NCBI GenBank assembly: GCA_030407085.1
Contig: CM059583.1
Coordinates: forward strand, 86,718,001-86,782,000
Reading direction: 5' to 3'
DNA from: Trichopria drosophilae
Taxonomy: Eukaryota; Arthropoda; Insecta; Hymenoptera; Diapriidae
Length of the DNA stretch: 64,000 nt
How positions within the stretch are numbered: the first letter of the stretch is position 1; each line of letters starts with the position of its first letter. Of this stretch, positions 9,736 through 64,000 are shown piece by piece. The notes beneath the pieces were generated by a model, which was not told where the DNA came from, made no database searches, and saw only the letters and a program-made list of their open reading frames with translations. The position numbers were made by a program, and so were the translations under genes.

Positions 9736-10016
9736 ATAGAAATGATCGATCCGTCATCCATCCAGATGGGGAAAGATGGTGAAAACATACAGCCAGTTAA
9801 TCGGTCCGCTTTGTATTTTCGCTATGCCTCGCTTGTCTGTGCCACTTTAAGGCACACGCTCCATGGCGTGGTGCTATAATTTTTTTCGGTTTGTATCCGT
9901 TAGTTTGGACCTCCCTGCTGGCCAGCATTCAGCATGGTTGAACCTTAGCTGATAGAGCCCGAGCAGATCGTAAGCCACAACACCCCCACCACGAGAAGGT
10001 GGACACATGGGGGCAA

Positions 10017-10217
10017 CCAGCCAATCAAGGCAAGGTCGTAAGAATCCCAGCCACTTAAGGCAAGGTACGCGATGACCCAGCCAGTCAAGGCAATATCGAG
10101 AATGTCCCAGCCAGTCAAGGCAAGATCGAGAATGACCCAGCCAATCAAGGCAAGGTCGTAAGAATCCCAGCCACTTAAGGCAAGGTAAGTGATGACCCAG
10201 CCGGTCAAGGCAAGATC
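10017..10217. repeat. 30-bp minisatellite with 120-bp higher order
   Basis: Seven copies of a 30-bp unit begin CCAGCC(A/G)(A/C/G)T(C/T)AAGGCAA. Unit 5 is identical to unit 1 and unit 6 nearly so to unit 2, implying a four-unit (120-bp) higher-order duplication. Because 30 is divisible by three and the unit lacks stops, a spurious long frame (9945-10229, minus) runs across it. Confidence 0.9.
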
Positions 10218-10242
10218 AAAAAAGTTCACTCCATAAGCAAAT

Positions 10243-11310: not shown

Positions 11311-11555
11311 TATGTAAGATAAAGATGAATTTTCAGATAAGTACTTTTTATCGTTTAACTCATCTTAATAGAAAGCTGAAAAAGCGTGTGACAAGTACTT
11401 GAACAATTAATACAGAGTCAGGTTTAAAGATTATTTAACTAAATGAATTTTTTAGCGTTTACTTTATTACAAAAAATTATTTTTCATGTATTATAAGCAA
11501 CAATATCAACGTAAAGAAATAAATTAATGTAGCTACGGAATTTATTGTGTAATGG

Positions 11556-11979
11556 TGTCGCAATTTATAATTCGCGGAAAAAAATGGGCGCAGTATAATT
11601 TCATTTGAGCGCTCGAATGCGATCGAGGCGCCCTCGTCGCAATTGTCTTGATTCGCGCGCGCCGCGCCAGATCAGTTCCGAGCTAGCCTCCAAAGATCAA
11701 AGACGACCCGCTATCCGTTTAAGTTTGTTTGTTTGGCGACGCCGACACCACGCCGCGTGCCGTGTGGTCCCGTAAGCGAAACTTATAATTGTGCGTTTCG
11801 TTTCCACGGTAGAGACGATACCGCGAGAAAAATTGTATCCGACCAAAGTTAATAAAAGGTGCTCATTCTTTTGGAAAAAAGGCGAAACGTGTTCATTCAG
11901 TGGTGATTTTGCACCTGGATCCTCGCCTTAAGCTTTTTTTGTTCTCTAGCTCACGTCGCGCAAAATCGAAGTAGCGACA
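11556..11979 (+). repeat. 5' LTR of the BEL/Pao element
   Basis: Begins TGTCGCAATTTATAATTCGC and ends GAAGTAGCGACA, with 6-bp perfect inverted termini. I found no difference from the 3' copy at 17998-18421 on reading both. 'AATAAAAGG' near 11850 could serve as a polyadenylation signal. Confidence 0.95.
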
Positions 11980-11985
11980 TCTTTT

Positions 11986-12003
11986 TGGCGATCCTGCCAG
12001 GAT
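11986..12003 (+). other. Primer-binding site, arginine-tRNA type
   Basis: TGGCGATCCTGCCAGGAT lies 6 nt after the LTR. Its complement ends ...CAGGATCGCCA, which resembles the 3' end of an insect arginine tRNA (discriminator G). The tRNA identity is from memory of that family and should be checked. Confidence 0.6.
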
Positions 12004-12582
12004 CCTTTGTTGGTTGCAACCTGGAAATCATCAAAAAGGACGCGTTTCTAGAACAATCGTTCGGGCCACGCCGCTGTTGGTGTTTTCCCACACGAGGGAC
12101 AGTGCTTTGTGCCTTCGCGCACTGCTAACCGGCTCAAGATATTTGCCGCTTCAGCATCTTGGATTATGTGAAGTGAAGTGACTTGATAAATTTGTCTACT
12201 TCCATCCACGCGGACTTTTATTACTTCGCCATATTTGGCGTCATATACGTTGTTTGGACGCCATATTGGTTTGTGCGTCGATCCAGTGCGCAGTGCCGAC
12301 CGGTGCCCCTGGTGTCGTCCGCCCCGCTCCTCGCGCCCGCGGCTCCCCTCTTTGCTGCCGCTTCGGGCGCACACGTGCCATCAGTTCACGCGTTCCGTCG
12401 TCGCCTGCAATCTTGTGCTGCGCGCGCGCATCTTTTCAGACCGCTTTCGTCACACGCTGACTCGCCGTTATCGACGACGTACCTCTTGGACTTTGCCTCG
12501 TCGCGGACTAAATTTTCAGTGAATTGAAGTGACTGTTTCACGCTGGAAAATTGGTACCATTGGTTTTCACTCTCGTTAGTGA

Positions 12583-15500: not shown

Positions 15501-16305
15501 TTGTGCCAAAACACTCCAAAGCGATGACGCATTGAAAATTCTGGGAGTTTGTTGGAATCCTCTGGAAGATAATTTTCAGTTCAAGGTCAACCAAATTACA
15601 CTTAACCAATACTCCAAACGGACTCTTTTATCATTAATAGCGCGTCTTTACGACCCATTGGGTTTGGTTAGCCCTGTGGTCGTAAAAGCCAAGATATTTC
15701 TACAACGACTTTGGCTTCTTCATCTTGACTGGGATACCTCACTTCCCGATGAACTGCTTGCAGACTGGACGAACTTTTATTGCGATTTAACGGCGCTCAA
15801 CTCGTTCACAATTCCACGCTGGACTGGAATAGGCTCCGACCTCTCCAATTGTGAGCTTCATGGTTTCGCTGATGCGTCCACCTCCGCTTACGCAGCTGTT
15901 TTATACATTCGTGTTTCCGCCGACGATGACTCTGCGGGTGTTGCGTTGTTGACCTCTCGGACGAAGGTCGCGCCCGTTAAGACTTTGAGCGTGCCACGAC
16001 TTGAGCTTTGCGCAGCGGTGCTCTTGGCACGCCTCATTGACAGTGTTCGAAAAATTACAGAAATTTCGCCGATCCAAACGTTTTGTTGGTCAGACGCAAC
16101 AATAGTTCCCATTGGCTGCAAAACCATCCGAATCGATGGAAGACTTATGTGGCCAATCGAGTTTCTGAGGTGCAGACCTTATTACCCAATGTACCGTGGC
16201 GGCACGTCGCAAGTAGTGACAATCCCGCGGACTTGGCCTCTAGGGGGCTCCTCGGATCAGAGTTGGTTCACAATACACTTTGGATCTCAGGTCCCGCGTG
16301 GTTAA
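12583..16305 (+). CDS. BEL/Pao Gag-protease-reverse transcriptase-RNase H polyprotein (5' part)
   Basis: A 1,240-codon frame starts MDSLVKADHRSLSRQ. Approximate residue order: N-terminal Gag; DUF1759-type segment near 155-300 (LPHFSGEYSKWDSFADYF); zinc knuckles near 369-425 (CPICSADHAIHTC, CFNCLGLHNLANC, CYVCSHKHHTLLH); aspartic protease near 505 (LLDQGSTWTFISE); reverse transcriptase near 760-960 with ADVAQMYRQ and LYVDDCLFG; RNase H from about 1093 (GFADAST) to CWSDATIV near 1168. Past about 16110 the frame runs off into non-homologous sequence, while the correct continuation appears in the frame of 16083-17891. One base is missing here relative to an uninterrupted polyprotein, and no canonical -1 slippery heptamer is visible, so I read it as a lesion or assembly error rather than programmed frameshifting. 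Confidence 0.92.
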   Translation: MDSLVKADHRSLSRQSTSGEDSFAMAACDSLEDLVAAQSSQFDSIHRAFEHLPTTDSRTVAKLKVHLRYIENIWNECRERHVRLLQIATPLEERHPYFLENRYQTAELLFLDAAASIEEALTTLCHETNSPNQSTPLDPTTMTPPVSGSRSTSGLPRIDLPHFSGEYSKWDSFADYFRSIIINNPSIDNIRKFHYLKSCLSGDALLLIEHLDLTAENFNVAWGALEAQFSNTRCIISNHLNMLFSIPAIRKESSADLRDLYYKITAILGALKSLGEPVDKWDSMLVHLITSKLDPETQRQWSLTLGARKDYPKFLELKDFINSRACGLQGSSTPYPMDSGSNSDVNRSARTIVKKKTIVQSHATTSANKQCPICSADHAIHTCKRFKNLSVSKRLDFVKRHKLCFNCLGLHNLANCASTHVCYVCSHKHHTLLHREPLSDATPLAPSVVSTPPNSSESNVSSSSPSTVVRSHFAANQPINASEILLSTASVRVESSNGRVLSLRALLDQGSTWTFISESAVNALGTNVQRVSTTVSGVGGASIGTINRSADITIFPLRVSEPRLHTHALVVKTVTSYVPCVSNSYSKWPHLTNLNLADPDPCSEEPINLIIGSDLYGTLLLDGLIKGSTDQPIAQNTALGWILSGWCKSPSSTSPSIISVHLCTTHAQLDLDLRRFWEVEEISPPKQLSPEDEFCEQFFIKTYSRTDDGRYMVRLPFISSSPDDSTESRPFAICSLKSGERRLSRKPDDARAYYEFMRDYEDQGHMTRIPITSLTYIGTYLPHHYVKKETSSTTKLRVVFNASHRTPNSKSLNEHLLIGPKLQADLGTVLLRWRTFQYVYCADVAQMYRQIWVDPRDRDHQRIVWRFSGNEPISDYRLNTVTFGVSCAPFLALRVMKQIELDYGAEFPLGADVLRHGLYVDDCLFGASDLHSARLIRDQLIALLRRGQFQLRKWASNSSDLLTDLEPANHGLACAKTLQSDDALKILGVCWNPLEDNFQFKVNQITLNQYSKRTLLSLIARLYDPLGLVSPVVVKAKIFLQRLWLLHLDWDTSLPDELLADWTNFYCDLTALNSFTIPRWTGIGSDLSNCELHGFADASTSAYAAVLYIRVSADDDSAGVALLTSRTKVAPVKTLSVPRLELCAAVLLARLIDSVRKITEISPIQTFCWSDATIVPIGCKTIRIDGRLMWPIEFLRCRPYYPMYRGGTSQVVTIPRTWPLGGSSDQSWFTIHFGSQVPRG

Positions 16306-17891
16306 AAGAGCAGCGTAACATTTGGCCAACAACCACTCCTGACCTTGAACAGGATGCACCACTAGAAGCGCGTCTCCACGTCGAGTCATTGGCCACATTT
16401 GTTACCTGTCTGACGCCCCTGTTCGAAAAGGTATCGTCGTGGACTCGGCTCGTTCGCATCATAGCGTACTTATTAAGATGGAAGTCGTGTCTAAAAGGGT
16501 CTGTCGTTCGCGGAGTTCTAAAGGCTTACGAATTGAAAGAGAGTTCGACGGTTATTTTTCGGGCAGTCCAAGGTTCAATGTTCCCGGAAGAATTGCAATT
16601 ATTACATTCTCAAAACCCTGTTCCCTCTCGAAGTCGATTAGCGTCATTACAACCATTCCTAGACAACATCGGACTAATACGCGTAGGGGGACGTTTGGAG
16701 CACAGTGACTTAGTGGACGATGTCAAACACCCGATTGCACTGTGCGCGCATCCCATTGTCCGACTTTTCGTAGTTTATACACACTTGCGTTGCCTCCACG
16801 GCGGTATACAGCTGACGCTGCGCACTCTACGACAATCGGTTTGGATTGTACAGGCAAAAAAGATAATACGGTCAGTTATCTCAAAATGCCTTACTTGTAC
16901 GCGTCTTCGAGGAGAGTTATGCACTCAGGCAATGGGAAACTTTCCATCTCCGCGAATTTCGCACTCAGAGCGCCCGTTCGTCCATTGTGGGCTCGATTAC
17001 GCCGGTCCTATACAAGTACGGATCGGTGGTGGTCGCGGTCGTAAATCGCACGCGGCATACATTGCGCTATTTGTATGCTTTGCAGTCAAGGCGTTGCACC
17101 TGGAACTCGTCTCTGATTACAGTTCTGCGGCGTTCATTGCAGCATACAAGCGGTTTGTATCGCGGCGCGGCATTCCGTCATGCCTGTATAGTGATCAGGG
17201 CACTACCTTCGTTGGGGCAGAATCGGAGCTGTCCCGCGCGTTTCGTCGGGCAACCCAGAATGACGAGTTTAAGATTTTGTTGGCTCAAGATGGCGTACGT
17301 TGGCAATTTATGCCTCCGGCCGCTCCCCATTTCGGGGGTATCTGGGAGGCTGGGGTCAAAAGCGTGAAATTCCACCTCAAGCGAACGCTCGGCAATCACA
17401 CCCCCACGTTCGAAGAGCTCTCGACTGTACTATGCGAAATCGAAGCCACATTGAACTCACGTCCAATATGCCCTTTGTCTGACGACATTGACGAGTTACA
17501 AGTCTTAACTCCAGGACATTTTTTGATTCATGGTCCATTAAATGCAGTGCCAGAAGAATCGCTTCTGGAAGTACCCGTCAATCGGCTGTCTCGTTGGCAG
17601 TGTTGCCGTCAATTAGTCGAACGATTCTGGAGACTCTGGTCTTCCGACTATATGCTCTCGTTGCAGCAACGATCTAAGTGGCAATTTCCGAAACAACCAA
17701 TCTCGGTTGGCAAAATGGTGCTAGTTAAGCGTCCGAATCAGCCACCTACTAAGTGGCCGCTTGCTCGAGTGACCGCTTGTCACCCTGGAAGTGACGGCGT
17801 ATGCCGCGTCGTCACTTTACGTTTAGCGACTACTACACTTAAGCGTCCGATTACGCAGCTTGCGTTGCTGCCGATAGACTTAGAGAATTAG
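16083..17891 (+). CDS. BEL/Pao RNase H end and integrase (3' part, shifted frame)
   Basis: This frame resumes the polyprotein after the frameshift. Near the start are the end of RNase H and the 'NPADLASRGL' connector typical of BEL/Pao. An HHCC-type integrase zinc-binding region follows (H..LHGG...CLTC). The DDE catalytic core shows D in 'LDYAGP', D in 'YSDQGTTF' and E in 'GGIWEAGVKS'. The C-terminus is DUF5641-like (VGKMVLVKR...WPLARV). It stops at 17891, about 90 bp before the polypurine tract. The nominal methionine at 16083 is not a true start; translation would require the upstream frame. Confidence 0.9.
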   Translation: MLVRRNNSSHWLQNHPNRWKTYVANRVSEVQTLLPNVPWRHVASSDNPADLASRGLLGSELVHNTLWISGPAWLKEQRNIWPTTTPDLEQDAPLEARLHVESLATFVTCLTPLFEKVSSWTRLVRIIAYLLRWKSCLKGSVVRGVLKAYELKESSTVIFRAVQGSMFPEELQLLHSQNPVPSRSRLASLQPFLDNIGLIRVGGRLEHSDLVDDVKHPIALCAHPIVRLFVVYTHLRCLHGGIQLTLRTLRQSVWIVQAKKIIRSVISKCLTCTRLRGELCTQAMGNFPSPRISHSERPFVHCGLDYAGPIQVRIGGGRGRKSHAAYIALFVCFAVKALHLELVSDYSSAAFIAAYKRFVSRRGIPSCLYSDQGTTFVGAESELSRAFRRATQNDEFKILLAQDGVRWQFMPPAAPHFGGIWEAGVKSVKFHLKRTLGNHTPTFEELSTVLCEIEATLNSRPICPLSDDIDELQVLTPGHFLIHGPLNAVPEESLLEVPVNRLSRWQCCRQLVERFWRLWSSDYMLSLQQRSKWQFPKQPISVGKMVLVKRPNQPPTKWPLARVTACHPGSDGVCRVVTLRLATTTLKRPITQLALLPIDLEN

Positions 17892-17982
17892 TTGTTAAGT
17901 TAAGTATAAGTTCCAGTCTTCGCGTCTCGGTACATTTTCGGTTTTTTGTTTCGCTTCTAGGTCCTATTGCACCCTATGGCTG

Positions 17983-17997
17983 CAATGGGGGGCGGTA
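17983..17997 (+). other. Polypurine tract of the BEL/Pao element
   Basis: The purine-rich stretch CAATGGGGGGCGGTA ends exactly at the 3' LTR start (17998), the usual plus-strand priming site. Confidence 0.7.
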
Positions 17998-18421
17998 TGT
18001 CGCAATTTATAATTCGCGGAAAAAAATGGGCGCAGTATAATTTCATTTGAGCGCTCGAATGCGATCGAGGCGCCCTCGTCGCAATTGTCTTGATTCGCGC
18101 GCGCCGCGCCAGATCAGTTCCGAGCTAGCCTCCAAAGATCAAAGACGACCCGCTATCCGTTTAAGTTTGTTTGTTTGGCGACGCCGACACCACGCCGCGT
18201 GCCGTGTGGTCCCGTAAGCGAAACTTATAATTGTGCGTTTCGTTTCCACGGTAGAGACGATACCGCGAGAAAAATTGTATCCGACCAAAGTTAATAAAAG
18301 GTGCTCATTCTTTTGGAAAAAAGGCGAAACGTGTTCATTCAGTGGTGATTTTGCACCTGGATCCTCGCCTTAAGCTTTTTTTGTTCTCTAGCTCACGTCG
18401 CGCAAAATCGAAGTAGCGACA
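17998..18421 (+). repeat. 3' LTR of the BEL/Pao element
   Basis: 424 bp with the same sequence as the 5' LTR on visual comparison, followed by the target duplication AATGG at 18422-18426. Confidence 0.95.
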
Positions 18422-18426
18422 AATGG

Positions 18427-18660
18427 CATACAGTATTTGATGAAGAATTTTACATTCCATAACACATAGGACACTGATCCAAGATGGACATTGTTTTGAT
18501 TTCATGCTCCAGAAGCCACATCGTATAAGATTTGTGATGCCGTTCGAGAATTTTTCCTATCGTCCAGGCAAGTCTCGTCGCGTACCACTCGAGATGAGAA
18601 CCGCAATCTCGCCTTTCAAAGCACCGTGTACCGTCTCGTCTCGTATGGAAAGTCTCGACT
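18427..18660 (-). other. Remainder of the mariner-type element 3' of the BEL insertion
   Basis: A minus-strand frame (18680-18450, ending 'SILDQCPMCYGM') is open for 76 codons. I do not recognise it. It could be part of the original element interior or a chance frame. Confidence 0.25.
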
Positions 18661-19610
18661 ACCGATTTTCGATCTTTCACGATCTTTTCCGATCTTTTTC
18701 GATCTTTTACGCTCTTTTACAATCTTTTTTTTATCTTTCACGATCTTTTTCGATCTTTTACGATCTTTTACGATCATTCACGATCTTTTACGATCTTTTC
18801 CGATCTTTTTGGATCTTTTACGATCTTTTACGATCTTTTCTGATCTTTTTGGATCTTTTACGTCTTCCTCGATTTTTTCCGATCTTTTTGGATCTTTTAC
18901 GATCTTCCTCGATCTTTTACGATCTTCCTCGATCTTTTACGATCTTCCTCGTTTTTTTTCGATCTTCCTCGATCTTTTTCGATCTTTGTCGAACTTTTCG
19001 ATCTTTTCCGATCTTTTTCGATCTTTTACGCTCTTTGACCATCTGTTTTTTTATCTTTCACGATCTTTTACGATCTTTTACGATCTTTTACGATCTTTTA
19101 CGAGCTTTTACGATCTTTCACGATCTTTTACGATCTTTTCCGATCTTTTTGGATCTTTTACGATCTTTTACGATCTTTTCCGATCTTTTTGGATCTTTTA
19201 CGATCTTTTACGATCTTTTCCGATCTTTTTGGATCTTTTACGATCTTTTACGATCTTTTCCGATCTTTTTGGATCTTTTACGATCTTCCTCGATCTTTTA
19301 CGATCTTTTACGATCTTTTCCGATCTTTTTGGATCTTTTACGATCTTCCTCGATTTTTCCGATCTTTTTGGACCTTTTACGATGTTCCTCGATCTTTTAC
19401 GATCTTCCTCGTTTTTTTTCGATCTTCCTCGATCTTTTTCAATCTTTTCCTATCTTTTTCGATGTTTTACGATCTTGTACGATCTATTTCGAACTTTTCG
19501 AATCATATCGATCATTTTCGATCACATCGATAATTTTCTCTCATTTTCGATCCTTTTCGATCTTCTTCGATCTTTCTCGATCTGTTTCGATCATTTTGAC
19601 CATTTCCGTG
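18660..19610. repeat. Minisatellite of GATCTTTT(A/T)C units
   Basis: About 950 bp of diverged 10- to 11-bp units (CGATCTTTTA, CGATCTTTTT, CGATCTTCCT). Longer blocks of about 57 bp repeat around 19130-19330. Three overlapping frames of 114-384 codons (…DLLRSFTIFYDLF…) are translations of the array and not genes. Confidence 0.95.
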
Positions 19611-19611
19611 G

Positions 19612-20177
19612 TAAAGGTGAGGGGTTCCATTAAAGGAATCGACTTGATATTAAAATGACCTTGAAAGTAGCTGTGAAAGTCTAGTCTAGGTCAAGGTCAT
19701 ATACGAACGTAAAATCTTCCGCGCTGTCTTCCAGGGTAAAAAATAAGGGGTTCCGTTAAAAAAAACGACTTGACCTTCAAATGATCTTGAAGGTTGAGGT
19801 CAAGGTCAATGTCAACGTCACATGCGGGCGTGAAGTTGTCCTCTGTTTCCATTTCCATAGAAAAAAATGAGTGCTTCCATTAAAAAAATCGACTTGATAT
19901 TAAAATGACCTTCTAGGTAATGGCGAAGGTCAAGGTCAAGGTCGCATTATGGCGTAAAATCTTCCGCTCTTTCCATTTCCGGGTTAAAAAATAAAGGGTT
20001 CCATTTGAAAAAATTGACTTGATATTGAAATGACCTTGAAGGCCATCGTCAAGGTCAATGTCAAGGTCACCATAAGTTAGCTCTGTCTGTACCCTTCAAC
20101 TTTTGTTTAAACAAATTTCCTCCAAAATGCTTACCATCCGAGATATTCTAATCCGTTATTTAAAATGGGACACCCTG
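19612..20177. repeat. Right composite terminal inverted repeat
   Basis: Reverse complement of 9269-9735, with one additional about 125-bp unit. It ends GGACACCCTG followed by TA. Confidence 0.8.
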
Positions 20178-28783: not shown

Positions 28784-29065
28784 AGTAAAAGAGGGAATTC
28801 CTTAATTTTAATGTAATTTAAAAATGTTTAATGTTTTAGAATAAACTCTCTTAATTTTAATGTATTTTCGTGTCTTACTTGCCCTAGAATACGTAGAGAA
28901 ATAAGTCGTAATCTTTCTTGAATTTTAAGTTCGAATTTTTGATTGGTCGTCGAAAATAAAATTCTTTACAACGTCGAGAACAGCAGCATTTGGCGTTCGA
29001 TAATTACTTTTGATTTCTTTTCTGCTTCGCAACATATTTCCAGTCGTGATCTCTAACGTTAACAC

Positions 29066-31051
29066 AGAGAATCCCCCTGATAGACACCTCTTTGGAATTG
29101 AACCAATCTAGACATGGTTCGACGCTTGCCCGATGTCACGACAAAGCGTGTTTTCCAAAGAGGTGTCTATCAGGGGGATTCTCTGAGTCCTCTGCTCTTC
29201 TGCATCTCACTATTGCCTCTATCCGTTGCTCTCCGGAAATCTCAAGGGTACATGTGTGGACCACCTGGTGAACGTGTACATAAGATCACCCATCTTTTCT
29301 ATATGGATGATCTTAAATTATACGCATCAGGCGAGGATCAATTACATCGATCTCTGAACATCGCCCTCACATACTCGAGAGATATCGGCATGGAATTCGG
29401 AATGGACAAGTGTGCAGTCGTTCATTTGCACAAAGGAAGGTCAGGCTCCTATAACAACGATATGGAGCTCGTCAACGGAAATATCATCCGCCACCTTAGC
29501 GCCGAAGAAGCCTACACATACCTGGGGGTACCTCAAAGGCATGTCCAGGATGTGCAGGCTGCTAAAACCACCATCATTAAGAAATACGGCCGCATTCTCC
29601 GTCAGATCTGGTCATCAGAATTGACCGGGAGAAATAAGGTGGCAGCCACGAATATGTTGGCCGTATCACCAGTGCTCTATTCTTTTGGAGCACTGAAGTG
29701 GAACGTTGACGAGCTAAGGGATCTTGACCGAAGCACACGGAAGATGATTTGTCGATGCGACATGATTAATCGAACGGAGGATCCCCTGATGATGCTAGTA
29801 CATCAGCATGAAATTCAGGGGAAGGGGGCGTTTTTGTACAACGCGGCGGAACGAGCGGCGCGAAACCTCGTTCTGGTTTTCAACGTGGGACGTAGTGGTG
29901 CACAGGAGGCTGAATCAGTCATCAATCTGTGCCCAGTGCGTCTCAGGGCTAACATACGGAAGGAACAACTCCGTATGTTGGAGGGAAGGCATATCGACAA
30001 GCCGTTGCATGGACAATTCTTTCGAAATGTCCAACAACTTGGCTTGTCGGCAGAGATGACCTTCTCCTTCTTAAGATCAGCCGGCTTGAAATCCGAGACC
30101 GAGGGTTTTATCTTCGCATGCCAGGATGGGGTCATCAATACCTTAGCGTATCGCCAGAATATCTTACACCAGGCGGTACAGAGTATTGTAGATTGTGTAG
30201 ATGTCATGCTGAGACACTAATGCATCTTTTGGCAGCATGCCCAATGTATGCAGTTTCAGCATACATCGAACGTCACAATGCGGCTCTTCGAGTGCTATAT
30301 TACCATCTTCGCAGCACTTATGGTATTGATGCAACCCCAGTTTTGCCGTACGTCCCCACTGATATTGAATCCGTTGTCGGGAATGAGTCGTACCGAATAT
30401 ACTGGAATTACTCATTCCCGACGAGCAGGCAAATATCAGCCAATAAGCCTGACATCGTCCTTGTTGACTTCGATGACAAATCCATCTTCGTCATCGATTT
30501 TTCTGCACCAGCAGAAACAAATATAGTCAGCACAGAGGACGAAAAACGGATGAAATATCAGGAACTCCTGTTCGAGATTCGCAAGCTGTATCGAGGGTTC
30601 AAAGTCAAGCTTGTCGTGCTGATAATTGGAGTGCTGGGAGGAATGAGACCAACTTTCCTCCACAACATCAAAAGCATTCCGGCCTGTCAAGAACATGCAA
30701 ATTCCATCGCAGGCCGAATGCAGAAAGCAGTGCTGCTGGTATCTCTCCGTCTACTGAGGTCACACGAGATCCTGTAACCACTAACCCAATGGTAGAGGGA
30801 GTGGTTACAGTTAAAAAATAAATGGACCGGTGCAGCGGAGGAGATGGATATCGGAGCCACTTTTCTGCTGCAAACTGCACAAGTGGATTATGAATGGCCA
30901 AGGGAGGTTAGGGTTTTAGTAGGTAAACCTTGCCGTTAACATCAAAGGTGAGGGAGTCCGACACACTGGGGGTTACACAACATCTTTAACCCCCTATGGT
31001 GCCTAATGCATTTCCCCCCACCGTAAAAAAAAAAAAAAAAAAAAAAAAAAA
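29066..31051 (+). mobile_element. R4/Dong-like (RLE-type) LINE, copy 1, 5'-truncated with inverted 5' end
   Basis: Contains the 3' half of the reverse transcriptase, the C-terminal zinc motif and the restriction-like endonuclease, then an about 250-bp 3' region and a 27-nt A tract (31025-31051). The first about 90 bp are inverted relative to copy 2, forming 32-bp complementary arms at 29066-29097 and 29153-29184. Confidence 0.88.
29158..30777 (+). pseudogene. RLE-type LINE polyprotein fragment, copy 1
   Basis: The reverse transcriptase part has 'QGDSLSPLLFCISLLPLSVA' and 'HLFYMDDLKLYASG' (catalytic MDD). The frame to 30220 is followed by a frameshift into the frame of 30118-30777, which carries the CCHC motif 'CRLCRCHAETLMHLLAACP' and the endonuclease core 'KPDIVLVDFDDKSIFVID' (K-P-D-X14-D). 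That combination is diagnostic of RLE-bearing LINEs (R2/R4/Dong). About 39 codons present in copy 2 (after KMIC) are deleted. It cannot encode an active protein. Confidence 0.88.
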
Positions 31052-31091
31052 TGTCTTTATTGGACAATTTAAGAGCATTGTACAAAGGGCG

Positions 31092-31178
31092 AGACACAGC
31101 ACTGAAACTGCTGTTTTACAGCCTGACCCCTAAATCACTAATTTACGGTAATATTTACTTTTAGTTTTAATATAAGAC
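31092..31178. repeat. Left copy of an about 86-bp direct repeat flanking LINE copy 2
   Basis: Starts CTGAAACTGCTGTTTTACAG. It recurs with about four mismatches at 34989-35075, just beyond the 3' end of copy 2. It is either a long target-site duplication or a pre-existing repeat. Read in reverse, the wider block (31052-31178) resembles the 3' end of another LINE, with AATAAAG. Confidence 0.7.
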
Positions 31179-31179
31179 A

Positions 31180-34100
31180 ACTTCAACCCAAAGGGAATGA
31201 CGCGTAACACAATACGGCTATGCAAAAAGCTGCATCCTAGCCTATCTTCCCAAATGGCCTACTCTCACCTCCACGTGTGCTTATTAAAGCCGGTGAGCTT
31301 TGGACTCGTAGCAACCTTGCCAGAGATTGGGTAACCAACCCCAGTGGATAGCGAGGTAAGAGACAAACGAGAGAGGCATAACAACGGGGAGTAGGGCTAA
31401 CCACCCTACTCCCTGTATTTGCGGTTACTATGAATAGAACGCGCAGGACTCCTGACCATCGGGCTGCTTCGGATGCAGTCCAGTCCCGAGGTGGAGGAGC
31501 CGAAACAGGTGTCCCGGGACAACGACACACGAATGCCCACGGACGATTTCAGTGGACGGAGGATCTCAGGCAAGATCTAATGCGCTGCTACGAGGAGAGC
31601 TGTCCGCAACAGAGAGGCTACATGGCGCGAATGCATAGTCGGTTTGCAGTAATGCATCCCAAACTGGCAGATCGCTTTTCTCAACAACTGAGAGATTATG
31701 TGGCCTATCTGAGGCGGATAGGTTTCGTTGTTCCCAGCTGTCAACCGGTACCGGATGTGCGGGCAATATCAATTGAACCCGGACGCGGTGCTGAGAGAGA
31801 TGCTCCACCTTATGAAAGCACGACACTGGTATTTAGGCAAAATTTGACAACAAAAATTTTGCTTAAACAACGAAAAATAAACAGAGCAAATAGCCTACTT
31901 CTGGATGCTCTTCCAGATGACTGCGACCTGTGGCAAGTCAATTGTGCCGTTTACGAGGCTGCAAGTGATCTGGTGACTCCGCGAAATCTAACACAGATAT
32001 CAGGGAGTCGGCAGATTACAAAACGCATGTCTCAATTGAACGGTAAGATTCGACTGACACGGAAACTCGCTTCCCGAATTCAGTGTGTGATCGACTATTT
32101 AACATCTGGCCGTTCATTTACGGCCTAAGTCAAGAAGTTCGCACAACAACTGCGGACGTACTATTACACACTGAATAAGCTGAAGTTGCTCAACATCAAG
32201 CAACGTTTGGCGTATAAAATTCGGGTTTTGGCGGATGCCAAAAAGAGGCTGCAAAAACGGGAGGATGGAATTCGACAAAATGCAATATTTTGGACGAATC
32301 CTTCCAACCTCTTCAAACATCGTATCGCAGCCTCAAGCGAGTTTCCGTCGATGGCCGCAGTTGAGGAGTTCTGGGGGAGCATCTACGAAAAAACATCTAG
32401 GCTTAATGCAGACACTCCAGGTATTGAAATGTTCACCGAATTGTGCGACGAAGTCACACAACAAAGTGAAGATTGCCCACCCGTCAGTGCATTAGAGGTG
32501 AAAAATGCCATTACAGGAGCGAGGAATTTCTCCTCGCCGGGCTGGGATGGAATTAACAACTGTTGGTGGAAGAAGTTCACTTCTGTCCATCAACACCTAG
32601 CCCGAATATTCACCTCTTATGTAAATGGGGACCAACCCATTCCGCACTGGCTGGTGGAGAGCCGAACGACACTGATCCCAAAATCGGGAAACTTGTCCGA
32701 TCCGAAAAACCATAGACCGATCACGTGTCTCAATACGTTATACAAATTGTTCACTAACATCTTGAACGAACGTATTGAGAAATCCGTGAAACCCGTGTGG
32801 CAACGGATAGTAGAACAACGAGGCTGCAAAATGGGTGTATCCGGCTGCAAGGACAACTTGCTTATCGACAGGTGTGTATGTCAGGACGCAGTCCAGTACA
32901 AGCGTAACCTGTCGATAGCCTGGCTGGATTACATGAAGGCGTATGACTAAACATCGCACGAGCTTTTAAGCTTGTTGCTCAAACGCCTCCATGTCCACCC
33001 AAACATAGTGAGAATTGTAGAAGACCTGATGCCTCTTTGGAAAACACGCTTTGTCATGACATCGGGCAAGCGTCGAACCATGTCTAGACTGGTTCAATTC
33101 CAAAGAGGTGTCATTCAGGGAGATTCTCTGAGTCCTCTGCTCTTCTGCATCTCACTATTGCCTCTATCCGTTGCTCTCCGGAAATCTCAAGGGTACATGT
33201 GTGGACCGCCTGGTGAACGTGTACATAAGATCACCCATCTTTTCTATATGGACGATCTTAAATTATACGCATCAGGCCAGGATCAATTACATCGATCTCT
33301 GAACATCGCCCTCACATACTCGAGAGATATCGGCATGGAATTCGGATTGGACAAGTGTGCAGTCGTTCATTTGCACAAAGGAAGGTCAGGCTCCTATAAC
33401 AACGATATGGAGCTCGTCAACGGAAATATCATCCGCCACCTTAGCGCCGAAGAAGCCTACACATACCTGGGGGTACCTCAAAGGCATGTCCAGGATGTGC
33501 AGGCTGCTAAAACCACCATCATTAAGAAATACCGGCGCACTCTCCGTCAGATCTGGTCATCAGAATTGACCGGGAGAAATAAGGTGGCAGCCACGTATAT
33601 GTTGGCCGTATCACCAGTGCTCTATTCATTTGGAGCACTGAAGTGGAACGTTGACGAGCTAAGGGATCTTGACCGAAGCACACGGAAGATGATTTGTATG
33701 CAACGCAGTTTGCATCCAAGATCTTCCGTGGAACGACTGTATTTGCCCCGAAATATGGGAGGTCGTGGCCTTTTAAGTCTGGAGTGTATGCGTGACCGAT
33801 TGGTCCTCGAGACAGCTTGCGACGTGATTAATCGAACGGACGATCCCCTGATGATGCTAGTTCATCAGCATGAAATTCAGGGGAAGGGGGCGGTCTGGTT
33901 TTCAACGTGGGGCGTAGTGGTGCACAGGAGGCTGAATCAGTCATAAATCTGTGCCCAGTGCGTCTCAGGGCTAAGATACGGAACGAACAACTCCGTATGT
34001 TGGAGGGAAGGCATATCGGCAAGCCATTGCATGGACAATTCTTTCGAAATGTCCAACAACTTGGCTTGTCGGCAGAGATGACCTTCTCGTTCTTAAGATC

Positions 34101-34985
34101 AGCCGGATTGAAATCCGAGACCGAGGGTTTTATCTTCGCATGCCAGGATGGGGTCATCAATACCTTAGCGTATCGCCAGAACGTCTTACACAGGCGGTAC
34201 AGAGTACGCTTTGTAGATTGTGTAGATGTCATGCTGAGACACTAATGCATCTTTTGGCAGCATGTCCAATATATGCAGTTTCAGCATACATCGAACGTCA
34301 CAATGCGGCTTTTCGAGTGCTGTATTACCATCTTCGCAGCACTTATGGTATTGATGCAACCCCAGTTTTGCCGTACGTCCCCACTGATATTAAATCCGTA
34401 GTCGGGAATGAGTCATGCCGAATATACTGGAATTACTCACTCCGACGAGCAGGCAAATATCAGCCAATAAGCCTGACATCGTCCTTGTTGACTTCGATGA
34501 CAAATCCATCTTCGTCATCGAGTTTTCTACACCAGCAGAAACAAATATAGTCAGCAAAGAGGACGAAAAACGGATAAAATATCAGGAACTGCGGTTCGAG
34601 ATTCGCAAGCTGTATCGAGGGTTCAAAGTCAAGCTTGTCGTGCTGATAATTGGAGTGCTGGGAGGAATGAGACCAACTTTCCTCCACAACATCAAAAGCA
34701 TTCCGGCCTGTCAAGAACATGCAAATTCCATCGCAGGCCGAATGCAGAAAGCTGTGCTGCTGGTAACTCTCCGTCTACTGAGGTCACACGAGATCCTGTA
34801 ACCACTAACACAATGGTAGAGGGAGTGGTTACAGTTACAAAATAAATGGACCTGTGCAGCGGAGGAGATGGATATCGGAGCCACTTTTCTGCTGCAGACT
34901 GCACAAGTGGATTATGGATGGCCAAGGGAGGTTAGGGTTTTAGTAGGTAAACCTTGCCGTTAACATCAAAGGTGAGGGAGTGCGA
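31180..34985 (+). mobile_element. R4/Dong-like (RLE-type) LINE, copy 2, near full length
   Basis: Runs from a short 5' region (to 31429) through N-terminal DNA-binding, reverse-transcriptase and endonuclease regions to a 3' region matching copy 1 as far as 'GGTGAGGGAGT'. It lacks the poly(A) seen in copy 1 and is flanked by an about 86-bp direct repeat. Confidence 0.85.
31430..34801 (+). pseudogene. RLE-type LINE polyprotein, copy 2, with stops and frameshifts
   Basis: The N-terminal part (31430-32128) has a Myb-like segment, 'GRFQWTEDLRQDLMRCYEES' to 'FSQQLRDYVAYLRR'. An in-frame TAA at 32126 follows 'GRSFTA'; the same frame goes on with the basic linker and the RT start, 'SSPGWDGINNCWWKKF' and 'STTLIPKSG'-like motifs, to 'WLDYMKAYD'. 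A second in-frame TAA lies at 32948, and the frame continues to 33946 with 'YMDDLKLYAS'. A deletion of about 40 bp then shifts the frame (33907-34245), and further shifts lead to the endonuclease segment at 34415-34801 (KPDIVLVDFDDKSIFVIE). It retains the about 39 codons lost in copy 1. Confidence 0.87.
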
Positions 34986-34988
34986 CAT

Positions 34989-35075
34989 ACGGGTGAAACT
35001 GCTGTTTTACAGCCTGATCCCTAAGTCACTAATTTACGGTAATATTTACTGTTAGTTTTAATATAAGACAAATTC
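34989..35075. repeat. Right copy of the about 86-bp direct repeat
   Basis: Matches 31092-31178 with about four substitutions and extends to 'ATATAAGACAAATTCAA'. Confidence 0.7.
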
Positions 35076-35889
35076 AAATTAATTTAAACGCTTTTAAATA
35101 TCATTATTCTATCATTTTTATTTTTAAACCAGTTAGATTTTCAAGGCCGTTGTTTGCTTTCGGCTTATCTGTATTGTCGCCCCGATCTCCCTCTTCCCTC
35201 CGGCTGCGGTAAACAATATTTGAACTTTTCGTGGAACTTATATCTTTGTTTACCGGTGTTCGAATTTGAAATATTTCACTGACTTTCGTTTGTTATCATT
35301 TGTACAGGTAATTTTTTTAACTTTTGTAATTTCCAGGACTAATACAAACTTAACTTAGGACGTTCACAATTTTAATAAGTTAACATCAAAATAATACAGA
35401 ACAATTTATATTTTCAATTATTTGTTTTAAAATCATTCTTAAAAAATTCTCGTCTCTTTCAGAGTTTCTTTTAATTAATTTCTTTTGTTTAATAAATTTA
35501 ACTTTTATGAATTTTTACCGGTTATTTTTTTACCTACTCAAATTGTACTAATTAAATCACTATATGCTACGATGTATCACGCTCTATTCTAATATCCGTC
35601 ATAAATATAAAACTTAACGCTAATAATAAATTAAAACATGAAACGTTAAAGGTACCAATATTAGTAATATTCAAAACTCTGCTACCGGTATTCTTATATT
35701 TCTCAACAATTTTAGCTTTTTATTTCTGATTCACCTTTATTATTTTTTTATTAATTTGTTTTGTGTAATGGTATGCAAAAAATGCAATATCAATGATTTA
35801 CTATTTATTTTAGTTGTAAATCAAAATGTCACATCAAGAAAACCTAACACTGTATCAAGACTGTAATAAGTAACACGAACATTGAGTGA
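35076..35889. other. AT-rich DNA without a recognisable gene
   Basis: No coding or RNA gene signal found. CCCCGATCTCCCTCTTCCC near 35180 is a local GC-rich patch. Confidence 0.5.
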
Positions 35890-57940: not shown

Positions 57941-58757
57941 ATTTATCCGAAGACATCGAAATATCTCGAGAACTATGCACAGAATCAAAAAAGTTGTCGG
58001 ATGAAAGTTGTTCGACACGAAGGGGGGCATCCAGTGATAATTAAATGTACCCCCTCCCCCATCCCCTGGAGGTGGAGTGGGGGCAAAAACAATAAAACTT
58101 AAATAGGAACCCCCATTTTTTATTGCAGATTTGGATTCTCCGGAAAAAAGTACACGAATTTGACCTGGGAGCTATTGCATTTTGGTTCACAGGTGGCGCT
58201 GTAATCGATAAAAATCCAAATTTATCCGAAGACATTGAAATACCTCGAGAACTATGCACAGAATCAAAAAAGTTGTCGGATGAAAGTTGTTCGACACGAA
58301 GGGGGGCATCCAGTGATAATGAAATTTACCCCCTCCCCCATCCCCTGGGGGTGGAGTGGGGGCAAAAACAATAAAACTGAAATAGGAACCCCCAGTTTTT
58401 ATTGCAGATTTGGATTCTCCGGGAAAAAGTACACCAATTTGACCTAGGAGCTATTGCATTTTGGTTCACAGGTGGCGCTGTAATCGATAAAAATCCAAAT
58501 TTATCTGAAGACATTGAAATACCTCGAGAACTATGCAGAGAATCAAAAAAGTTGTCGGATGAAAGTTGTTCGACACGAAGGGGGGCATCCAGTGATAATG
58601 AAATTTACCCCCTCCCCCATCCCCTGGGGGTGGAGTGGGGGCAAAAACAATAAAACTTAAATAGGAACCCCCAGATTTTATTGCAGATTTGGATTCTCCG
58701 GAAAAAAGTACACCAATTTGACCTAGGGGCTATTGCATTTTGGTTCACAGGTGGCGA
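57941..58757 (+). repeat. Left array, three 279-bp units
   Basis: Units begin ATTTATC(C/T)GAAGACAT. Each includes a GC-rich 'CCCCCTCCCCCATCCCCTGG' patch and 'GGTTCACAGGTGGCG'. The third stops 20 bp short. Frames of 62-83 codons in the array are repeat translations. Confidence 0.9.
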
Positions 58758-58866
58758 AATTGACAATTTTCGCCCGCGTAGCGGATATGGAATACGGTCA
58801 TTCTAACAAAGCCGGAAAAAAATACATTTAGCGTTACCCAGGAACAACGACGTGGACGTAGTATTC

Positions 58867-59508
58867 TTACTTGAGTAAGTGTTCGAAATCTTGACCTTCC
58901 ACTTCAATGCATTTATTTATTCTTTCTTCAAATGACTTTATACATGATAGAATCATATCTGCAGAAATTTCTGCGCAAGCAGTTCTTATGCGTTCCACCA
59001 TGTTTTCACGAGTCGTTGGTACTTGTTCATAAACCTTACCTGTTAGGTAACCCCATAGGAAGAAATCCAGAGATGTTAGATCAGGTGACCTCGCAGGCCA
59101 ATTAATGGGGCCACCTCTACCAATCCACCTACCATTGTAATCACGGTCTAGTATTTCCCTTGCTACTCTTGAAAAATGTGCTGGGCAACCATCATGCTGA
59201 AACCACATTGTCCGTCGGACGTCCATAGCAACATCCTCAAGTAGTAATGGTACTTCTTGTTCTAGGAAATCTCGATATTTTGTTCCATTCAAATTACCTT
59301 CAATGAAATAAGGACCAATGAGTTTATTTCCTATGATTCCACACCAAACGTTCACCGACCAAGGACGTTGATGATTAACTTGTCGTAACCAATGGGGATT
59401 TTCTACGCTCCAATAATGCATATTATGCCTATTGACGCCACCATGGTTCGTGAATGTAGATTCATCTGAAAATAATACATTAGCAAAGAAATTGTGGTTC
59501 GTTTGCAT
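58867..59508 (-). pseudogene. DD41D transposase, catalytic half only
   Basis: Open for 213 codons from MQTNHNFFANVLFSDEST. Catalytic residues: D in 'LFSDESTF', D in 'WFQHDGCPAHF', third D in 'SPDLTSLDFFLWGYL', 41 residues after the second, as in the transposase at 10243-11310. The N-terminal helix-turn-helix half is missing; upstream lies an AT palindrome (59530-59580) and then the repeat array. The element could not mobilise itself unless a helper supplies the enzyme. Confidence 0.85.
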
Positions 59509-59606
59509 TTTTTGAATTGATATTACTAAATTCTAATATTAAAAATTCTAATATTAGAATTTTTAATATTAAATTTTCATAAGGGGATCAAACTGTCCCT
59601 ATTTGC

Positions 59607-60337
59607 CCCCTGGATGCCCCCCTTCGTGTCGAACAACTTTCATCCGACAACTTTTTTGATTCTGTGCATAGTTCTCGAGGTATTTCAATGTCTTCAGATA
59701 AATTTGGATTTTTATCGATTACAGCGCCACCTGTGAACCAAAATGCAATAGCCCCTAGGTCAAATTGGTGTACTTTTTTCCGGAGAATCCAAATCTGCAA
59801 TAAAATCTGGGGGTTCCTATTTAAGTTTTATTGTTTTTGCCCCCACTCCACCCCCAGGGGATGGGGGAGGGGGTAAATTTCATTATCACTGGATGCCCCC
59901 CTTCGTGTCGAACAACTTTCATCCGACAACTTTTTTGATTCTCTGCATAGTTCTCGAGGTATTTCAATGTCTTCAGATAAATTTGGATTTTTATCGATTA
60001 CAGCGCCACCTGTGAACCAAAATGCAATAGCTCCTAGGTCAAATTGGTGTACTTTTTTCCGGAGAATCCAAATCTGCAATGAAAACTGGGGGTTCCTATT
60101 TAAGTTTTATTGTTTTTGCCCCCACTCCACCCCCAGGGGATGGGGGAGGGGGTAAATTTCATTATCACTGGATGCCCCTCTTTGTGTCGAACAACTTTCA
60201 TCCGACAACTTTTTTCATTCTGTGCATAGTTCTCGAGGTATTTCAATGTCTTCAGATAAATTTGGATTTTTATCGATTACAGCGCCACCTGTGAACCAAA
60301 ATGCAATAGCTCCTAGGTCAAATTGGTGTACTTTTGT
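59607..60337 (-). repeat. Right array, three inverted 279-bp units
   Basis: Inverse of the left array. The marker TCAGATAAAT occurs at 59694, 59973 and 60252, exactly 279 bp apart. Ends abruptly at 60337. Confidence 0.9.
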
Positions 60338-60599
60338 CAATGTGGTTGTAAATAAATAATACGTATCCATGGTTATAAATAAATGTTTTACAGCTATATG
60401 TAAATTTAAGGCAGCAATGCTATGTTTGGTTCTAATAGATGAAAACAATTTTAGTCGATAACAGCGAAATGAATTGACAGTTTTATCACAATTTAAAAAA
60501 AAATATTTTACCATTAATTTAGTTTTAAATTATAGATTTAAATACAAATCTATGTCAATTGTTCACAACTAATTTAGATTACACCACTTTTTACCCAAA
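60338..60599. other. AT-rich DNA, no gene seen
   Basis: Short unassigned stretch between the truncated repeat array and the LTR-like region. Confidence 0.4.
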
Positions 60600-61014
60600 T
60601 GTACAAACAGCTGTTGTTCCGGATCGCCACGGGACGAAGCCCCCAACAATCGTTTAGGTCGAGCGGGATAATATTATAATAAAATTCCTGTAGAATTAGG
60701 AGGAAAATATAAATTAACTTCTTTGCAATTAGTTTGTTTTGGGGCGTGGTTGTTGTTTTCCGAAGTCCTGCCTCTAGTAAACAAATAATCCGAACCCGAA
60801 TAAACGGGCCTGTGGAAGGCACCTTCAGTTAGTTGATCGTGGGGTTCCGAGACGTTCGGACCAGTTTTATCATTATAGTTCGGGTATATATCATAGAGAC
60901 AGAACCTTGAGGTGCGTTGATGGTGACTTCCCGGGTCGCTTCGCGGTCTCATCGGTGGGTGAGTAATGATTCGACATATTTATTATATTGTGTATTATGT
61001 TTATTTATATTTTG

Positions 61015-61021
61015 TATAAAA
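61015..61021 (+). promoter_or_regulatory. TATA box upstream of the hammerhead
   Basis: TATAAAA lies 29 nt before the first base of hammerhead stem III, so the predicted transcript start nearly coincides with the ribozyme 5' end. Confidence 0.5.
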
Positions 61022-61043
61022 GTGACATCTTTATTGGCGAGAT

Positions 61044-61110
61044 ATGTCTGGGGCAGGGTCCGCTCACAAGCCCCACTGAAGAGTCCGTGAGCGGACCCGG
61101 GACGAAACAT
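61044..61110 (+). ncRNA. Hammerhead ribozyme motif (type I, short stem III)
   Basis: All core elements are present in order. Stem III strand ATGT precedes cleavage base C (61048, triplet GTC). Stem I TGGGGC/GCCCCA (61049-61054 with 61070-61075) is a perfect 6 bp. The core is CTGAAGA (61076-61082). Stem II is GTCC/GGAC (61083-61086 with 61100-61103). GAAA follows at 61104-61107, then CAT closing stem III. Predicted cleavage is between 61048 and 61049. The short stem III is typical of metazoan retroelement hammerheads, which usually act as dimers. Loop I and loop II are complementary over 12 nt, far more than the usual tertiary contact. Confidence 0.8.
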
Positions 61111-61251
61111 CAGCCAACCTATTTATTTGTGTTTGTCTAATATTTGCATGTGACTTAGCATGACGTAGCAGGAAAATACAGGATCATTTATCGAAATATA
61201 TATTCGACCCCTGTAACCGCGCGACAACCCCCTTCCCTGTAAGTAACACAA

Positions 61252-61270
61252 TGGTGCCGAAACCCGGGAA
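61252..61270 (+). other. Retroelement primer-binding site
   Basis: TGGTGCCGAAACCCGGGAA begins one base after an ...ACACA end. Its complement would be a tRNA 3' end, TTCCCGGGTTTCGGCACCA. I have not assigned the tRNA. No gag or pol frame follows in the 2.7 kb left in the window. Confidence 0.6.
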
Positions 61271-62696
61271 TCAATGCCGGTAATCAGGGAAGTGGGGTTG
61301 GAGAGAATTTGTGATTTATTTATTTATTTTTTTATTTATTTATCTATTCCTTATTTATTTGAATATTTATTTTGACGGGGTAAATTATTCTACAATGTAA
61401 TCCAGCGATTTAAGTCGTAATATCGATCCTTTCGAGTTTGTTGAATATTAAATGCAAAACAGCGCCTTTGACAGGTGTTCTGACGCACATCATCTTTTCT
61501 AGATGTCCGTAAGAACATCGCGCATTATAAATGTTGAAACGAAACTGTTGCGAACAGTTCGAATCATTCTAAAGATATTACCCGGTTGCATAGTTAAATT
61601 AAGAGACGAAGTAATAATCGAGGCTAAAAGAAGACGGCTCCAGACACGACGTGAGGGAGATAGCGATTTGAGTCGAGAAATTGTTTATAAGAAAATCGTT
61701 TTCGGGGCGGAAAAAACGAATTGATCTACGATAAGTAGACTAAATCGCGTCGAAGGATTCAATGGGTGTAACATAGTCCGCAACAATCCGCGTCGGGGCG
61801 AGGGATTGGTTCGCAGCGCGGAGCGGCCCGTGGTCCCAAGCTTGCCTTTAAATGGAGAGTAGCCCCGAAGTGTTCCGAGCAAACTGGGCTGGCACTAAGG
61901 GTGAACAAGAAGTTTCTAGGCTGAAACGGGAATCGGTGTCTCGCCTTCGAATGGAAGTACCCAGGCGTTCCGAGCTGGCGGCTACGGCGTCGAGCTAAGC
62001 TGGCGTCTGGCGAATATGAAGTTCGCGTTGGTTCACAGCGTAGAAATTTGAATTTGTCTTCGGCGCGCGCGTGCGCGAGTCGGGTTTCTTTCGATGATAC
62101 ACAATCATACGTGGCGGTTTGTGTCAATTTCTCGGCTTGGTGGCTGCACCCTTTCGTTTCTTTTTTCTAATAAATGGATCTTATTGCCTAACATTTTGCC
62201 CATTATTCGTCCTTCGATCAACAACAATAATAATGTATAATTAAAATGAAGAAAACAAAAAAAAGGTGTAAAGTGAGGAGATAGTAAATATTAATAGGAA
62301 TAACTTGCGTACAAAAAGTATTAAAATACTTAGTTCATCTTAATAAAAGAGATGTATTGATGGTTAATAGAAGGGTTTCCTACAGAAAATAAATATATAG
62401 TAGTGACTATAAGAAACGTTTTAAATAGAAAGTTTCTTTTAATGGTTACTAACCGCTTCTCTTAGTGTAACGATGGATTTTCACGATTAAAAGGAATCTC
62501 GCCTTTGCTACTCTGACTTCGTCAAAAGAACGTGTTGCGAACAGAATTGATGCCTCGCGTATTTGCGGTATCCGGCGTGTTTTTTCCACTATGGTGGTTT
62601 TCCCACTACATCGTCCCGAATGGGTACTTCTCCAAGTCGAAGGGTGCCTCTAGGTCCTAACGTTATGGGCCCTTTGAAATCCGTAGTACTTTCCAG
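61271..62696. other. Unassigned DNA downstream of the primer-binding site
   Basis: Begins with a TTTATTTA-rich stretch (61315-61375). A 73-codon basic frame at 61503-61724 (MSVRTSRIINVETKLLRTVR) has no motif I recognise. A GC-rich block at 61750-62130 contains a partly duplicated phrase ('AAATGGAGAGTAGCCC'/'GAATGGAAGTACCC', then 'GTTCCGAG'). It could be the internal region of a non-coding retroelement or ordinary intergenic DNA. Confidence 0.35.
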
Positions 62697-62780
62697 ATGG
62701 ATAGATATAGATAGATATATGAATAGATATAGATAGATATATGAATGGATAGATGGATAGATAGACAGATATCGAGGAAA
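62697..62780. repeat. (GATA)n microsatellite
   Basis: Imperfect GATA/GATGGATA units interrupted by TATGAATAGATA. Confidence 0.9.
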
Positions 62781-64000
62781 GTGCCGATACGATTTATGAC
62801 AAAGTTGAATTTGAATTTAGTCGGTAACTCGGTGCCGACAAAGTATATTGATCGAAATACAAACGAGAGATTCGATTTGACGGTTAGTCTAATTCGGACA
62901 TTCGGGCGCGATGGTATCACGGCGAATTTAGGAATAAATAAAACCTTTTGAATTCGGATCGTCGAGTTTCAATCGCGAGGCATATCCGGTTATTTTAGTC
63001 GTAAACAAAATGGAATTTAATAAGATTATGCGATAGAAATATTTTACATAAAAGGAACTTTGATTTGTAATATTTTGAGGCATCATTAATTTAAAAATAA
63101 AATTCTGAAAATAAAAGTATAAATATAATTTCATGTAGCCGCATGATTGTGACTGAAAATATGTAAGCATGATTGGACCAAGAGAGGCGGCCAATCATTG
63201 ATTGTTATTGATGAAACAAAGAAAAAAAAGGAGTGTTCCTGGTCCATCCCTGATTTGCTTAAGATGAATAATTAATTAATTTAGAATCGATCGGTCCTAC
63301 TATTTAAATGCGAAATGATTTAATTGTATTGTTTACCGGATTTTGACTTCCATCGCCTATTGTTGTGGATTATCCCCCGCTGTCTTCGCCTTCCCGTTAT
63401 TTTCGTTCGTTGTTTATTATTTTTTCTTATTCTTGATTTTATCATTTTTCGTTATTACTCCTTTTCACCATCCCCGTAGATCCACGTAGTGCGGAAGGAC
63501 TTTGGTCCAACCGTGGTCTTCGAAGCCACTCGGGCTCGGGTGCATTTTGCACTTGGGGCCCTTCGACCCCGTCGTGGAGCTTGGCTCTGCCATGTGGGTC
63601 ACAACACGCTGGAGAGACTAGGTGCTCTCCAGGCAATTTAGGCTGTGGGTAGCCGCGAGGGGGAGGAAAGAGGTAATCAAAGAAAATAGTTTTATTTCTT
63701 GTTAAATTCATTTGCAACTTTATTTACGACTACGTTACGAGGTCTTGGGCGAAGCCAGGTGTATAGGATCGCATAATGTATCTTATTTGTTTAAGTTTAT
63801 ATTTCATTTAAATTAAATCGAATTTGTTTATTCAAAACATGAAGTGAATATTGTTCAATTTATGTATTATTCATTAAAAATTAATATCATTTTCGAATAT
63901 CCAATTATGTAAAAGTGACGTTAAAAAAGCTAAAGCCGTATTATTTATTTCAAATTTAAATGTGTGGTGTTTTCAAGACGGCGTTCTCTATGTGCACGGT
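62781..64000. other. Unassigned DNA to the window end
   Basis: Mostly AT-rich. A GC-rich island at about 63470-63660 contains a 91-codon minus frame (63717-63442) with no motif I recognise. Confidence 0.4.

Follow-up and report, generated by a model that had tools for sequence, protein, structure and literature searches.

Does an LTR retroelement in a probable animal genome carry a hammerhead ribozyme within its LTR, and what would such a ribozyme do at the predicted transcription start? The question is raised by a short segment of the window, by which we mean the whole 64,000-nt stretch of DNA analysed here. A sequence-only reading had pointed there to a TATAAAA motif, a hammerhead core (GTC triplet, CTGAAGA, GAAA and three stems), an ACACA end and a TGGTGCC-type tRNA primer-binding site (PBS), all of which we located at 61015-61269 (+). 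That reading had also set plant elements, with LTR, PBS and hammerhead, against animal elements that carry hammerheads without a tRNA priming site. Excerpts of two papers state a similar contrast: the plant arrangement combines an LTR, a PBS and a type III hammerhead, whereas the retrozymes of animals carry hammerheads of type I and are without LTR, PBS or PPT (PMC7229834; PMC7761336).

By its core and stems, 61044-61110 (+) is confirmed as a complete type III hammerhead, identified by an Rfam match (61041-61113), a descriptor and a reading of the structure, while its self-cleavage is a prediction. The GUC cleavage triplet occupies 61046-61048 (+) and, by established hammerhead chemistry, the cut follows C61048 and is thus expected between 61048 and 61049. 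Stem I (61049-61075, +) has 6 bp (61049-61054/61070-61075) closing a 15-nt loop 1 (61055-61069), and is followed by the CUGAAGA core (DNA CTGAAGA; 61076-61082, +). Stem II (61083-61103, +) has 4 bp (61083-61086/61100-61103) and a 13-nt loop 2 (61087-61099), after which comes the GAAA core (61104-61107, +). The 4-bp stem III (61044-61047/61107-61110, +), in which we include the U61047-A61107 pair, is ended by a U-C mismatch, and three more pairs, GGC/GCC (61036-61038/61113-61115), could extend it. All elements of the type III definition are therefore present (CUGANGA, GAAA, NUH, three stems, an open stem III), and the topology rules out the type I hammerhead of a retrozyme or of a Penelope element.

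The covariance search that the sequence-only reading had proposed as a check supported the motif in part. RF00008 (Hammerhead_3) matched 61041-61113 with 33.9 bits, at E=1.1e-5 for the 401 nt searched and E=0.0018 for 64 kb against 4227 Rfam families, and this score falls short of the RF00008 gathering score of 48.5; the Rfam scan of the window returned nothing at or above gathering score. As a yardstick, six RF00008 matches in four viral contigs scored 30.2-40.5 bits, every one below 48.5, these contigs being hand-picked from pattern-selected type III candidates whose motifs are without experimental validation. When both strands of the window were searched with our type III descriptor, which was composed after the motif had been seen, a single site was found; the descriptor matched in 1 of 300 dinucleotide-shuffled windows, or in 0 of 300 when stem I was set to at least 6 bp.

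The setting of this hammerhead is very probably a 5′ LTR, because it lies between TATAAAA (61015-61021, +) and an exact 18-nt tRNA-Phe PBS placed after an ACACA end. The TATA box by itself is weak evidence, since the window has 17 copies of TATAAAA on its + strand. The PBS (TGGTGCCGAAACCCGGGA; 61252-61269, +) begins one base past the ACACA end, which closes an AACACA at 61245-61250, and agrees at 18 of 18 positions with the 3′ end of tRNA-Phe including CCA, which bears out the tRNA primer-binding site of the sequence-only reading. The comparison used a sequence that we take to be tRNA-Phe and that ARAGORN types as tRNA-Phe gaa; identity with it stops after 18 nt, which is the usual length of a PBS. 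Shuffled windows gave a mean of 0.01 matches each with three mismatches allowed, and a tRNA gene as the source of the match is ruled out by the absence of tRNA genes from the window. We place the putative LTR at 60612-61250 (TGTTG...AACACA, +). Its 5′ boundary is a guess among TGT candidates at 60560, 60600, 60612, 60615 and 60689, and the G+C content steps from 0.20 (60500-60599) to 0.44 (60600-60699) close to the guessed start.

Downstream of the PBS, the putative internal region (61270-64000, +) continues beyond the end of the window, which lies 2.7 kb past the PBS. It holds no convincing sense ORF: the longest + strand stop-to-stop frame wholly within it is 81 aa, and the one frame that reaches 120 aa or more lies on the minus strand, where it runs stop to stop for 135 aa. 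A blastn search of 60401-64000 against the window returned only the query itself, giving neither a second LTR nor a further copy of this region, hammerhead included, within the window. Inside the putative LTR, AATAAA occurs only at 60678 and 60799, both upstream of the TATA box. Variants of this poly(A) signal, AATACA at 61175 and AATATA at 61195, follow after the hammerhead, so that ordinary poly(A) end formation may apply.

Transcription usually starts 28-33 nt past the first T of a TATA box, which here predicts a start at 61043-61048. This interval coincides with the cleavage site, as the sequence-only reading had noticed, with at most five bases between the predicted start and the cut. In a transcript beginning at 61045 or later stem III would be truncated, and readthrough of the other LTR would then be the main source of complete ribozyme. 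Since such readthrough RNA would hold the whole ribozyme in the trailing LTR, the simplest model places cleavage there and yields an RNA of about one unit.

The two hammerhead loops show a feature that is new relative to the sequence-only reading. Loop 1 and loop 2 share 12 nt of perfect complementarity (61056-61067 with 61087-61098, +) with zero mismatches, which could form either a loop-loop contact or a competing hairpin; letter shuffles of both loops reached at most 10 nt in 20,000 trials. Such long Watson-Crick contacts are not typical of the 37 listed viral type III candidates, in which the longest loop-loop run was 4 among the matches listed, with no excess over shuffled pairing. These candidates were drawn from at least 120 viral loci with a broad hammerhead pattern, and are pattern-selected and unvalidated, with a GTCC/GGAC stem II shared by pattern choice. 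Type III hammerheads whose stems differ by two base pairs are commonly pseudoknotted, according to an excerpt of Perreault et al., and stems I and II of our motif, at 6 and 4 bp, show that same difference. The loop complementarity thus fits the pseudoknotted hammerhead class.

Folding models without pseudoknots favour the hairpin. The nested hammerhead has a predicted energy of -17.2 kcal/mol, compared with -29.2 kcal/mol for the 12-bp hairpin together with stem III and a minimum of -32.6 kcal/mol, a gap of about 12 kcal/mol between nested hammerhead and hairpin in favour of the latter; in the predicted ensemble, stems I and II have a probability near 0. In folds of successive prefixes, stem I has formed in full by 61075, and the hairpin takes its place at 61093-61095, too early for stems II and III to form. 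These calculations are not decisive, because as free duplexes 7-8 kissing pairs would contribute -12.9 to -16.2 kcal/mol; after subtraction of a loop penalty, a hammerhead with kissing loops could then come close to the hairpin in energy. All 12 pairs could hardly form while both stems are in place, given linkers of 0-2 nt. After cleavage, the 3′ product is predicted to retain the 12-bp hairpin. The loop complementarity may accordingly serve ribozyme activation or a post-cleavage lock, or it may mark inactivation, and the energy calculation alone would also fit an inactive ribozyme. An excerpt of PMC4918200 gives a predicted blocked hammerhead for the RNAs of plant retrozymes too, so the hairpin may represent a lock rather than a defect.

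We give about even odds to the explanation that an animal genome here holds the 5′ LTR and PBS of an LTR retroelement, and that this LTR bears, at its transcription start site, a type III hammerhead belonging to the loop-pseudoknot class. The motif and its significance, the PBS, the loop complementarity and the predicted energies are what the analysis shows. The parts that we infer, namely the start site, cleavage, a trailing LTR, a circle or short R, and locking, would act together as follows. RNA polymerase II would initiate near 61045, and the leading LTR would give little or no complete ribozyme. RNA running through the trailing LTR would carry the full ribozyme and be cut there, leaving an RNA of about one unit. 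This RNA might form a circle, as happens with plant LTR retrozymes, or might function with a very short R. The 12-nt complementarity would act first as a partial kissing contact, and refolding into the 12-bp hairpin after cleavage would lock the ribozyme. This explanation is favoured by the complete core and three stems with their E-value over all Rfam families, the 0 of 300 shuffles with a stem I of at least 6 bp, the exact PBS after ACACA, the predicted start on the cleavage site and the loop complementarity, and further by the 6- and 4-bp stems and by AATAAA lying only upstream of the TATA box. By analogy, the order of parts and the predicted blocked hammerhead of plant LTR retrozymes also count for it, as does the plant LTR retrozyme transcript that an excerpt of PMC12029980 describes as cut by its own LTR hammerhead. 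Against it stand the Rfam score under the cut-off, the near-zero probability of stems I and II, the hairpin forming first in the prefix folds, the single locus, the lack of a second LTR in the window, an internal region exceeding that of plant retrozymes, viral type III candidates without comparable loop pairing, and the variant poly(A) signals downstream of the hammerhead.

A more specific version is a tentative possibility only. In it, the locus would belong to a large animal LTR retrotransposon whose type III hammerhead works as a switch set by its position. With the motif at the start site, the leading LTR would yield only part of the ribozyme and the trailing LTR all of it; the mRNA 5′ end would then stay intact while the 3′ end of the genome RNA would be cut. 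Cleavage would replace the poly(A) site or compete with it, an ultra-short R or a circle would follow, and the spent ribozyme would flip into the locked hairpin.

The same energies could describe an inactive relic, a former LTR hammerhead that has lost cleavage and is now held in the 12-bp hairpin. Its predicted -29.2 kcal/mol with stem III, against -17.2 kcal/mol for the nested hammerhead, and stems I and II near probability 0 are what such a relic would give, as is a single locus with no second LTR in the window. We nevertheless regard a relic as unlikely, since all core positions of the descriptor are intact, the 18-nt PBS is exact, and folding without pseudoknots is not decisive while 7-8 kissing pairs contribute -12.9 to -16.2 kcal/mol as free duplexes. 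The hairpin might instead be the functional feature, a stable structure near the RNA 5′ end serving packaging, dimerisation or strand transfer, with the hammerhead core arising by chance. The fold has a z-score of -2.3, 4 of 200 shuffles fold equally well, and the predicted ensemble contains the hairpin to the exclusion of stems I and II. A fortuitous core would leave CUGAAGA, GAAA, GUC and three correctly placed stems unexplained, along with E=0.0018 over 4227 families and descriptor matches in only 0 of 300 shuffles (stem I of at least 6 bp) or 1 of 300 (looser descriptor), and we think this explanation very improbable.

Another alternative concerns where the ribozyme acts. The sequence-only reading had suggested that the RNA trims its own 5′ end, and the predicted start does meet the cleavage site, but the very same coincidence weakens trimming, stem III being incomplete from 61045 on. 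Trimming of every transcript would need a start a few bases upstream of 61044, after which the ribozyme would remove the cap. The start prediction (61043-61048) is accurate only to several bases, and the LTR transcript of NbRZ1, which is untranslated, is cut in this way according to an excerpt of PMC12029980. Because the cut would come no more than five bases after the predicted start, and because the loss of the cap would harm translation if the element were autonomous, we judge general trimming to be improbable, and we keep cleavage in the trailing LTR as the preferred reading.

How the element relates to known hammerhead elements depends on which of its parts are compared. The likeness to plant LTR retrozymes, as described in excerpts of PMC4918200, lies in a type III hammerhead that we place within an LTR and that precedes a PBS, in the predicted blocking of the hammerhead, and in the absence of any coding capacity found so far. 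Plant LTR retrozymes are cut in both LTRs, have no R and form circles, and their PBS corresponds to tRNA-Met and not to tRNA-Phe; their central region is short and non-coding, of about 300-600 bp, with an RNA of 600-1000 nt (PMC4918200), whereas the internal region here runs for more than 2.7 kb, past the window end, and so also exceeds the wider range of about 300-700 bp for plant retrozymes. Their hosts are plants, while the complete Pao element in the same window points to a probable animal host, and no second LTR occurs in the window. The LTR-bearing, retrozyme-like element proposed in the sequence-only reading is thus upheld for the type III core in an LTR-like stretch with a PBS, but we do not class the element as a retrozyme, because its internal region is too long and the window holds no second LTR. 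Compared with NbRZ1 of Nicotiana benthamiana, it shares an LTR promoter and a hammerhead placed to act on the LTR transcript; the NbRZ1 start has been mapped at LTR position 116, with the 5′-proximal part cut off, (PMC12029980, in excerpt), whereas here the predicted start falls on the cleavage site itself.

Animal non-LTR retrozymes, in excerpts of Cervera and de la Pena (2020; PMC7229834), likewise place a hammerhead in an animal retroelement; they are type I, form short tandem repeats and have no LTR, PBS or PPT, unlike the element here. Its type III topology, its PBS and the lack of a further copy in the window set it apart from animal non-LTR retrozymes and Penelope-like elements. Closer in ribozyme class are the pseudoknotted type III hammerheads reported from termites, dipterans and HDV-like RNAs of toad and termite, an architecture that the structure search in the excerpted text did not find in hymenopterans, hemipterans and a cockroach (PMC7936874). 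They resemble the present motif in their type III topology, in their animal setting, which is probable here, and in Watson-Crick pairing of loop 1 with loop 2, which is predicted here. In the hammerheads of that excerpt, helix I is long and contains an internal loop, the contact is short and of the 4-nt type, and the termite copies have no recognisable surrounding element (PMC7936874). The motif here differs in its simple stem I, in its loops of 15 and 13 nt with 12 nt of complementarity, and in its LTR/PBS setting. The element joins plant-type anatomy to a probable animal host.

Searches for relatives gave 0 matches each for the stem II/loop pattern, the stem I-core pattern and an LTR piece. 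The 18-mer of the PBS had 0 matches in viral contigs and 8 loci in prokaryote genomes, and its 16-mer had 8 loci in viral contigs; the type III descriptor matched 0 of these 16 loci, so we take the PBS matches as chance. No hammerhead in an animal LTR retrotransposon appeared among the literature matches listed, which comprised titles and abstract openings, with subscription papers and bioRxiv outside the scope. Excerpts of PMC10886601 and PMC6155905 contributed no decisive point. Insects with type III elements are noted briefly, as 'in preparation', in an excerpt of PMC7761336, and this remark, together with the literature scope, makes a prior discovery possible. If the animal case is true, LTR elements carry a hammerhead outside plants, and a testable link would exist among plant retrozymes, viroid-like circles and insect type III hammerheads. 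A hammerhead at the predicted start also raises the question of whether a ribozyme could stand in place of poly(A) end formation in a retroelement; were the switch to operate, one motif would spare the mRNA 5′ end yet cut the 3′ end of the genome RNA.

Several other elements occur in the window. A complete Pao element (11556-18421) has identical 424-bp LTRs (11556-11979 and 17998-18421; TGTCGC...GCGACA), AATGG on both flanks and a polyprotein in two overlapping frames; the identical LTRs and the AATGG on both sides indicate a recent insertion. As it has its own LTRs, this element is ruled out as the owner of the LTR at 60612-61250. Pao elements are animal elements, and the presence of a complete one therefore makes an animal host probable. 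At 9300-20146, 124-bp-repeat arrays (9376-9705 and 19620-20070), mutually inverted over 419 bp at 97%, flank the Pao element and a transposase-like ORF pair (10243-11364, -). This pair is similar to a transposase-like ORF (58867-59532, -) at 57941-60335, which lies between two mutually inverted 279-bp-repeat arrays that are about 97-98% identical and which had no Pfam match at E<=0.001. Two near-identical tandem LINE-like stretches (93-98% over 1218 and 600 bp), split over several frames, lie at 29062-35077. An Rfam match to MIR6224 at 4372-4500 (46.1 bits, E=9.8e-6), far under the gathering score of 171, is perhaps a hairpin-forming repeat. At 18666-19596, a 10/20-bp repeat (TTTACGATCT) forms an array of 931 bp in which three overlapping frames stay open over 164-404 aa.
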